This document shows positions 22,004 through 41,301 of a stretch of 64,000 nt of DNA, piece by piece. The translations under genes and the position numbers were made by a program. The notes below the pieces were generated by a model. The model saw only the letters and a program-made list of their open reading frames with translations, was not told the origin of the DNA and did not search any database. Within the stretch, counting starts at the first letter, position 1, and each line of letters starts with the position of its first letter. Source of the DNA: Fibrobacter sp. UWR3 (GTDB lineage Bacteria > Fibrobacterota > Fibrobacteria > Fibrobacterales > Fibrobacteraceae); contig NZ_FRCW01000005.1 of assembly GCF_900143055.1 (NCBI RefSeq), forward strand, positions 248,001 through 312,000, given 5' to 3'.

Positions 22004-22032
22004 TTGACAATTGCCCAATTGTGCATTATATT
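22004..22032 (+). promoter_or_regulatory. lexA promoter
   Basis: A -35 box TTGACA (22004-22009), 17-base spacer and -10 box TATATT (22027-22032), close to the sigma-70 consensus. The ATG lies 33 bases after the -10 box. Confidence 0.85.
22012..22025 (+). promoter_or_regulatory. LexA operator
   Basis: TGCCCAATTGTGCA is an exact match to TGCNCN4GTGCA, the LexA box described for Fibrobacter succinogenes. It overlaps a perfect inverted repeat ACAATTG-CC-CAATTGT (22007-22022). It lies between the -35 and -10 boxes, so binding would block transcription and give autoregulation. Confidence 0.85.
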
Positions 22033-22064: not shown

Positions 22065-22712
22065 ATGGATAACAGCAAACGCAAGGAACTGACCACCCGT
22101 CAGGAAGAAATCTACGAATACATCAAGAAGTATTCCCGCGAAAACCACATGCCGCCCACCGTCCGCGAAATCGGCAACCATTTCGAGATTTCCTCGACAA
22201 ACGGCGTGCGCTCTATCCTCGCCGCCCTCATCAAGAAGGGCTACATCAACCGCTCCCCGCGCCTCAGCCGCGGCATCGAGATTGTGGATACTGACGGTTC
22301 CGCCGCCGATTCCGCACCGAGCAACACCATCGAGATTCCCATTATCGGCCGCGTGGCCGCGGGTACGCCCATCCTCGCCGTACAAAACCTCGAAGGAACG
22401 GTCACCATCGACCGCGACTTCCTCGCCTGCCGTTCCGACGTATTTGCCCTGCGCGTCAAGGGCGATTCCATGATCAATGCCGGCATCTTCGACGGCGACC
22501 TCATCTTCGCCCGCCAGCAGCGCTCTGCCGAACGCGGCGAAATCATCGTGGCGCAGGTCAACAACGAGGCCACCGTCAAGTACTACCAGCCGCAGCACGA
22601 CCACATCGAGCTCAAGCCCGCTAACCCGAAGTACCGCCCCATCATCGTGAACAAGGGCAGCGACTTCTCCATCGCGGGCCGCGTCATCGGCGTGATGCGC
22701 AAGGTGAACTAA
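22065..22712 (+). CDS. lexA: LexA repressor, SOS regulator
   Basis: 215 residues. The N-terminal winged helix ([16 protein letters not shown]...[19 protein letters not shown]) binds DNA. The C-terminal S24 protease domain has the Ala-Gly cleavage site in GRVAAGTPI, the catalytic Ser in VKGDSMI and the Lys in EATVKYY. RecA filaments trigger self-cleavage and derepress DNA-repair genes. GAGG lies before the ATG. It is monocistronic with its own operator and terminator. Confidence 0.97.
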
Positions 22713-39551: not shown

Positions 39552-39743
39552 CCGTGAGCCACAAGCTCCATGCGTTAAGCTGGAGCGGTGGCGAGAGCAC
39601 GGGCAAACCGGAGGTTTCAATACCCGAACTTAGCCCGTGCGGTCACCTGTGAGCCACAAGCTCCATGCGTTAAGCTGGAGCGGTGGCGAGAGCGAGTGAG
39701 AAACCGGAGGTTTTATCACCCGAAACGACGAACGAGCGGTCAC
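39552..39743. repeat. Two tandem copies of the CCGTGAGC...GCGGTCAC structured repeat
   Basis: Unit 1 is 39552-39646 and unit 2 is 39647-39743. The first 44 bases after TG are identical (TGAGCCACAAGCTCC...GGCGAGAGC), including a GCTCCA / TGGAGC hairpin. The middle differs: unit 1 has ACGGGC paired with GCCCGT, unit 2 does not. Both end ACCGGAGG...CCCGAA...GCGGTCAC. The end of unit 2 supplies the stop codon of the SprT-like gene. Confidence 0.88.
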
Positions 39744-40552
39744 AACTCTTTGTGCCGGTGCATGGCGCGAATGTTTTTCGGGAGCACTTCCTTGTGCCAG
39801 CGAATCCACTCGTCGTAGTATATGTACTGGCGTTCGCGCTGCCTAAAAATTCTTCCGTGAACCACGCGACGCCCGTTCTTTTCTTCCACCGGGATAACAA
39901 TATGCAGGCATTCGTGATAGACCACACCCGCCACTGCATACAACGGGCAGTTCGCCGCATCGTAGCCCCTGCTGATGCTAATCAGGTGGAACTCCTCGCC
40001 CGTTATCGGGTCCTTGCGCAGGGAATGGAAACTGAGGCCCCCCACACGGTTGCTCCAGGTAATGCGACACTTGAGCAGCTCGTCGAAATACGTATGGTTT
40101 ATCGCTTCCAGAACCTGATTGAGGTCGAAGTAACGCCCCCTGGGGTTAATGGGCGGGAGCCTTCCCGTACTTTCGAGCGGAGCCTTCCCCTTGTCTACAA
40201 GCACCTGGTCCACCGCTTCCCAGAAGCGCGTCACCAAATCCTTGATAATAGCCTTGTTCTTCTGCGTCTTGCGGCGTATCGCATGCTCTGCCCATTCTGC
40301 GGCAAGCTCGCGCGCATCAGCAAACTCAGGCGTTTCCATGTACGAAGGGAGCAATACCTCGGGGTGGCCGAACAGGAAGTTCGCCTTGCACCGGATGCTC
40401 CTTTTCAAACGTGAATTGTACTTGAAGTGCACGAGCCCGTTCGCAGAGCACTTCGACTTGCGGATAGGCGGCGCAGGAGCGATATCCGGAGCGGGAGCCC
40501 CGAACAAGTCCATCTGCCCGAACAGGTCGAGCTGTCCGTTCTCTTCTATCAC
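39740..40552 (-). CDS. SprT-like zinc metalloprotease with tandem beta-clamp motifs
   Basis: 270 residues. The GTG start at 40552 has AGGAG seven bases before it and overlaps the upstream stop (GTGA). Residues 7-11 (QLDLF) and 13-17 (QMDLF) fit the bacterial sliding-clamp binding motif QL(S/D)LF. A Pro/Ala linker and a basic helical region follow. From residue about 141 a SprT-like domain is visible: VLEAINHTYFDELL, ITWSNR, then the zinc site HECLH (213-217) and a third ligand candidate in HGRIF (His232). SprT-like proteases include SPRTN, which cleaves proteins crosslinked to DNA and is tethered to PCNA. A similar clamp-tethered role is an inference. Active-site Glu214 is present. Confidence 0.8.
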   Translation of the reverse strand: MIEENGQLDLFGQMDLFGAPAPDIAPAPPIRKSKCSANGLVHFKYNSRLKRSIRCKANFLFGHPEVLLPSYMETPEFADARELAAEWAEHAIRRKTQKNKAIIKDLVTRFWEAVDQVLVDKGKAPLESTGRLPPINPRGRYFDLNQVLEAINHTYFDELLKCRITWSNRVGGLSFHSLRKDPITGEEFHLISISRGYDAANCPLYAVAGVVYHECLHIVIPVEEKNGRRVVHGRIFRQRERQYIYYDEWIRWHKEVLPKNIRAMHRHKEL

Positions 40553-41301
40553 CCGAGCACTCCTTCATACGCATTCAAGGACAGGAGCCCCCCGAAATAG
40601 CTTTCCGGGAGTTCCAGCCCCGCATAGTGTTCCGAGAGGTCCACCAGCGACTGTTCGATGTTGTCGGGCAAGTAGACGATGTAGCTTTCGTTCCTTTCCG
40701 TCTGCAAGTGTTCCGGAGTGCAATAGCACGGGTCCGTCTGGCTAAAGTACATACGGCACGAAACCGGGCGCGAAGCATACACGCCGCAGTCGCCCTTCCT
40801 GTCCGAAAACGGGCACGGGCGCCACTGTTCAAAATAATCGTGCAGGGCGTGGTCTTCCGCATCGTCCTCGGAACCAATCGTTTCAAGCCGATTTTCAAAC
40901 AAACTATTAAACAGGTCGGAACGAGACTGACACATTTCCATTACAGAAATAAAGTCTTCGCGTTCGCGCAGTTCCGTGTAGAGCGAAATCAGTTCAAACG
41001 GTTCTACCGACATGGGGTAATGATGGCAGCAGTTGCCGCACGCGGGCCTGCACTGGATAGGCTTTTCCTGTTGCGGGAGAACCGCCTTCAGGTAAAGGTC
41101 GTAGGCCCTGTGGTACTCCCCTGCAAACGAGATAATGTTCGGCAGTTCGTCTTTTAAGTTGTCTGGACCGATGGCGTACGTCCGGCCAAATTTTGCAGCG
41201 ACCTTGTCGAGACGGTCGATTTCTGAGCCCAAAAGGGAGCCCATCCGCATCTCGGCGATCTTGTAGGAGCGCGTGGGTAAATAGTCTCTGCAAAGTTCCA
41301 T
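40549..41301 (-). CDS. YkgJ-type cysteine-cluster protein
   Basis: 250 residues from ATG 41301 (a TTG nine bases upstream is possible). The cysteine pattern is that of the zinc- or iron-chelating CxxCxxCC family: CRPACGNCCHHYP, then CPFSDRKGDCGVYASRPVSCRMYF and CYC. Members likely bind a metal or Fe-S cluster; function unknown. It is translationally coupled to the SprT-like protease (four-base overlap), so the two proteins probably act together. It diverges from the lipoprotein at 41458. Confidence 0.85.
   Translation of the reverse strand: MELCRDYLPTRSYKIAEMRMGSLLGSEIDRLDKVAAKFGRTYAIGPDNLKDELPNIISFAGEYHRAYDLYLKAVLPQQEKPIQCRPACGNCCHHYPMSVEPFELISLYTELREREDFISVMEMCQSRSDLFNSLFENRLETIGSEDDAEDHALHDYFEQWRPCPFSDRKGDCGVYASRPVSCRMYFSQTDPCYCTPEHLQTERNESYIVYLPDNIEQSLVDLSEHYAGLELPESYFGGLLSLNAYEGVLG

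Follow-up and report, generated by a model that had tools for sequence, protein, structure and literature searches.

A SprT-like protease with a predicted N-terminal beta-clamp-binding motif in Fibrobacterota and Myxococcota: a candidate for replication-coupled crosslink proteolysis

SprT-like proteases and beta-clamp clients

In the open-access literature searched, accounts of DNA-protein crosslink repair by proteolysis come mainly from eukaryotes. Where their substrates are known, SprT/Wss1 enzymes cut proteins bound to DNA and show little preference for sequence (PMC7782752). The best comparison for the protease described here is SPRTN/Spartan (DVC1), initially reported to bind PCNA and regulate translesion synthesis (PMC9240642); its PIP box has been reported to be dispensable for recruitment to forks (PMC7782752). 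Both proteins have a SprT core with the same spacing between HExxH and the third His, both carry a short motif for a replication clamp, and many members of the bacterial family have an HGxEF-type motif as SPRTN does. However, the PIP box of SPRTN is C-terminal (325-332), whereas the motif of the bacterial family is N-terminal and of the beta-clamp type; the zinc-binding subdomain, p97 motif and UBZ of SPRTN are absent from the bacterial protease, which has instead a separate basic N-terminal domain, and sequence similarity between the two is weak (E 0.01).

E. coli SprT/YggI shares the zinc-peptidase signature of the SprT superfamily, but it is 165 aa long, lacks an N-terminal domain and a clamp motif, and has a C-terminal Cys-rich segment that the bacterial protease studied here does not. 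The archaeal minigluzincins selecase and abylysin have the same compact fold (Z 10-11 over about 100 residues) but are stand-alone proteases of about 110 residues, without a clamp motif or N-terminal domain. SprT-like/M48 proteins of cyanobacterial plasmids show homology of about 28% over 60-70% of the protein, although the clamp motif is absent and the N-terminus unrelated. To our knowledge, no clear role has been assigned to bacterial SprT proteins.

The canonical motif by which clients bind the beta-clamp is Q-phi-x-[LM]-[FL] or Q-phi-x-[LM]-x-[FL], and the tightest-binding peptide is QLDLF (PMC11139829). Clients such as Hda, MutS, Pol III alpha and Pol IV/V resemble the present protease in carrying the canonical Q-phi-x-[LM]-[FL] form in a disordered segment, which in Hda is likewise at the N-terminus (PMC11139829). 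No protease is among the clients reviewed in that article, where the term is absent (PMC11139829). A search of the open-access literature, by which older or subscription work could be missed, did not turn up any description of a bacterial SprT protease that carries a clamp motif; the parts are each of a known kind, while they seem not to have been described in this combination or across two phyla.

The protease gene and its N-terminal motif

The locus lies in a 64,000-nucleotide stretch of DNA from Fibrobacter sp. UWR3 that was analysed as a whole (the window). The features of the protease gene are as follows.

39740 to 40552, minus strand: SprT-like zinc metalloprotease, 270 aa, GTG start (ORF, Pfam, AlphaFold2 model)
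40520 to 40534, minus strand: predicted clamp-binding motif 1, QLDLF, residues 7-11 (sequence, published consensus)
40502 to 40516, minus strand: predicted clamp-binding motif 2, QMDLF, residues 13-17 (the copy that corresponds to the single conserved motif in relatives)
40178 to 40447, minus strand: basic N-terminal domain, about residues 36-125 (AlphaFold2 model: beta hairpins and two long helices)
39764 to 40138, minus strand: SprT catalytic domain, about residues 139-263 (AlphaFold2 model, fold and profile comparison)
39902 to 39916, minus strand: HECLH catalytic site, residues 213-217 (sequence, family alignment)
39857 to 39859, minus strand: third zinc ligand, His232 in HGRIF (15 residues past the second His of HECLH; same spacing in SPRTN)

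The protein begins with VIEENGQLDLFGQMDLFGAP (ORF 40552-39740, minus strand). Its match to the SprT-like profile PF10263 (E 1e-4, 22.6 bits) is below the cut-off of 25.6 bits; the profile matches 56/56 aligned family members, with a best E of 2.3e-7, and no NCBIfam profile matched the protease or its neighbour. A search of the protease's own genome with PF10263 missed the window protein itself and is a poor test for further paralogues, which could escape in the same way. The original prediction of a SprT-like zinc protease, with HECLH and a third His in HGRIF, is borne out by residues 213-217 and His232. HExxH and the third His are present in all 195 aligned rows, 181 of them with the 15-residue spacing, which rules out a degenerate protease; the degenerate HExxH sites that had been named as evidence against the idea were found in none of these orthologues. 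Just 3′ of the gene, at window positions 39553-39725, is an imperfect direct repeat of about 100 bp (GTGAGCCACAAGCTCCATGCGTTAAGCTGGAGCGGTGGCGAGAGC).

The AlphaFold2 model of the protease has a mean pLDDT of 89, with a low-confidence tail at residues 1-30 that contains both QLDLF and QMDLF and is predicted to be disordered. In this model the protease core folds like selecase (Z 11.0) and SPRTN (6mdx; Z 9.9 over 100 residues, rmsd 2.5 Å), with a weak Foldseek E of 0.14 for SPRTN, and Spartan was the sole plausible solved relative by sequence profile (E 0.01). Of the proposal that the locus follows the SPRTN plan with a bacterial clamp motif, the SprT core and the nearest solved sequence relative are upheld; the shared plan itself is an analogy, given the C-terminal position of the PIP box. 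The protease domain ends close to the C-terminus of the protein, and the C-tail has a net charge of about +5 in the family. The net charge of the N-terminal domain, +5 in the window protein and on average +8 in Fibrobacter and +10 in other members, is consistent with a role for this domain as a candidate DNA-contact region.

Several observations in the same genome bear on the motif. DnaE carries QMSLF and MutS a C-terminal QLDMF. DnaN is only 25% identical to its E. coli counterpart overall, yet 10/12 residues of subsite I and 4/8 of subsite II are as in E. coli, and the pocket is largely conserved. The codon pattern for Q-h-D-[LF]-F occurs at 11 sites in the 3.5-Mb genome, two of them in the window protease, and beyond these two just one belongs to a tail that looks disordered in a recognisable protein (TIGR03916); because the sites are so few, the motif is above chance. 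That QLDLF and QMDLF at residues 7-17 fit the beta-clamp consensus, as first proposed from the DNA, is confirmed and extended by their conservation in two phyla (below), and together these support a genuine clamp-binding motif.

Two further proteins of this genome deserve mention in their own right. The TIGR03916 protein, a radical-SAM putative DNA modification/repair protein (contig C6:141709-143013; L079, L223), has a C-terminal QLDLF/QLDFF tail that is kept in 26/28 relatives (among L224-L252), and it is a candidate for a second undescribed beta-clamp client; several orthologues (e.g., L229-L232) have an in-frame stop inside the aligned region, past the motif. The sole Y-family polymerase found (L167, contig C3:256579-257067 region) reads RGFDLFTD at the position expected for a clamp motif, without the leading Gln.

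Conservation and descent in two phyla

An N-terminal clamp motif is present in 55/55 Fibrobacter-type orthologues (shuffled sequences: mean 1.3, maximum 8) and in 39/50 other sequences (shuffles: mean 2.8, maximum 10), the latter comprising other Fibrobacterota, a few divergent Fibrobacter and the Anaeromyxobacter-like homologue L158. Its forms in these 50 include QLSLF, QTSLF, QLTLDLF, QTELDLF and QLHLNLF, among others. One of the 11 absences (L035) is a wrong start call, as the same gene in L101 reads QLSLF; the ten real absences are all Chitinispirillia-type (L040-L045, L048, L052, L086 and L099). Two of these, L043 and L052, have in common an SF-x-LFKP-like segment (SFITSLFKP and SFLKKLFKP, respectively) that may be a variant motif. 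In Myxococcota, where loci were gathered by a BLAST-based pass, the motif was found at 42/49 distinct loci (QLDLF, QLELF, QMSLF, QLSLPF and others). Start codons in the Fibrobacterota set were picked with knowledge of the motif, whereas a fixed 60-residue window applied to Myxococcota is free of such circularity and still gave the motif at 34/49 loci (shuffles: mean 0.9, maximum 7). The shuffles and the conservation over two phyla rule out a chance motif.

Within Fibrobacter, the motif reads Q-[LMT]-D-[LF]-F with little deviation and in varying codons; apart from the Gly that follows, its flanks are unalignable. The remainder of the N-terminal tail is unalignable across the family, the distance from motif to core is variable, and forms of the hexapeptide type (QLxLxLF, QLSLPF) also occur. 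A tandem double motif is found in only 13/55 Fibrobacter-type sequences, all in one subclade, and most members have a single motif, which rules out two motifs as a general feature. When conservation of the QxxLF motifs and of the gene pairing was checked as originally suggested, the motif held across two phyla; the doubling did not, and neither did the pairing outside Fibrobacteraceae.

The protease is single-copy in 89/101 Fibrobacterota genomes searched. A scan of genome contigs added L158, whose N-terminus reads GTRQLDRQLDLFGARM, and a homologue is encoded in 173/195 genomes, with up to four copies each, of a set whose assignment to Myxococcota rests on this Anaeromyxobacter-like member. 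Many of the Myxococcota genomes G156-G263 have two to four copies, and at least one second copy (L219) has QLALF. The two phyla separate in the tree, which is what vertical descent predicts, and among its 90 rows the motif state must have changed 11 times or more. Phage records and confirmed viral contigs contained no relatives of the protease. A mobile or phage origin was ruled out, as plasmid relatives were found only in cyanobacteria and are distant; inheritance in Fibrobacterota is chromosomal and single-copy.

A proposed clamp-tethered protease and the alternatives

We propose that this protein is probably a SprT protease tethered to the beta-clamp, which at forks, gaps or repair sites would clear proteins that are crosslinked to DNA or bind it tightly. 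The disordered N-terminus would dock one or two motifs in the DnaN pocket, and this would place the basic, probably DNA-contacting domain and the SprT domain beside DNA at such places. The protease would then most likely cut proteins covalently crosslinked to DNA or tightly stuck on it, allowing synthesis or bypass to proceed, and would do in bacteria what SPRTN does with PCNA. The parts of this proposal differ in strength. Clamp binding by the N-terminal motif is very likely, because the motif is well defined and conserved in sequence. DNA-dependent proteolysis we infer, and crosslinked proteins are favoured as the substrate by a small margin, because of the analogy with SPRTN (PMC7782752, PMC9240642). 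Since the PIP box of SPRTN is C-terminal and dispensable for fork recruitment, the analogy is a functional one and clamp coupling presumably arose independently. Whether the whole case holds, that is, whether Fibrobacterota and Myxococcota have a beta-clamp-tethered, replication-coupled crosslink protease that reached the SPRTN-PCNA design on its own, we regard as an even question.

If true, no dedicated bacterial crosslink protease of this kind, and no protease acting as a beta-clamp client, would have been known before, to judge from the searched literature. A protease with the strongest known clamp peptide, its motif kept in two phyla that include genetically tractable myxobacteria, is a testable candidate for replication-coupled crosslink proteolysis. 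It would add an enzyme class to the partners of the clamp, and would let the coupling of SprT proteases to clamps through unrelated short motifs be compared between eukaryotes and bacteria.

The same motif conservation and the same docking would be expected of a clamp-tethered regulatory protease, whose substrates would be intact clients (translesion polymerase, MutS, replicase) or DnaN itself and which would tune clamp traffic. The motif would compete for the pocket used by DnaE and MutS, and regulation of translesion synthesis from PCNA was the first role described for SPRTN itself (PMC9240642). However, where substrates of SprT/Wss1 enzymes are known, they are DNA-bound proteins cut with little regard to sequence (PMC7782752), and the basic N-terminal domain and C-tail suggest contact with DNA, so that a regulatory role seems rather unlikely. 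Further still from what we expect is a general or stress metalloprotease in which QxxLF is an autoinhibitory segment or substrate mimic and clamp binding is incidental. The selecase-type minigluzincins, which are the closest folds by Z score, include zymogens, and the motif is missing from some members; against this, the hexapeptide forms QLxLxLF and QLSLPF are those of clamp ligands, and a segment that was simply hydrophobic should not follow them; the motif also sits in a disordered tail, and its spacing to the core varies.

A different possibility concerns the upstream gene, whose features are as follows.

40549 to 41301, minus strand: Cys-cluster (PF03692, YkgJ-type) protein, 250 aa (Pfam, ORF, alignment)
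41026 to 41052, minus strand: CRPACGNCC cluster of the same protein, residues 84-92 (sequence)

This partner matches PF03692 (CxxCxxCC) at 33.2 bits, over the cut-off of 23, and its TGA overlaps the GTG start of the protease by 4 nt (GTGA), which upholds the translational coupling to a YkgJ-type protein noticed at the outset. The coupling had also suggested a two-protein system, e.g., one complex in which the Cys-cluster protein is a metal or redox switch for the protease. In line with this, partner and protease are adjacent on the same strand in 53/53 Fibrobacteraceae-type loci, including F. intestinalis, mostly with an overlap of 1 or 4 nt, and nine Cys are invariant in the partner (27 sequences). 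However, the partner is beside the protease in 0/27 other loci; outside Fibrobacteraceae, where both genes exist, they are at least 10 kb apart or on separate contigs, and an order-level relative (G062) has the partner with no protease detected. A conserved two-gene system is ruled out for the protease family as a whole, and a dedicated complex of the two proteins is improbable. Because the pairing holds only in Fibrobacteraceae, the partner falls outside the core design of the clamp-tethered crosslink protease and is best seen as a family-specific accessory of this lineage. Sequence searches found no relatives of the partner among solved structures, and its AlphaFold2 model, which is poor around the Cys cluster, gave no clear fold match.

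Outside Fibrobacteraceae, no repair theme was found among the neighbours of the protease gene, which counts against the proposed crosslink protease, as do the ten Chitinispirillia-type members that lack the motif and the missing SPRTN subdomain and motifs. SOS control was considered and set aside, as no LexA-type box was found 5′ of the partner-protease operon, a further point against the proposal but weak evidence; a lexA-like gene elsewhere in the window does have a perfect box. This gene (22065-22712, plus strand) has a TGCCCAATTGTGCA site in front of it at 22012-22025, which we take to be a Fibrobacter-type LexA box and which fits autoregulation.
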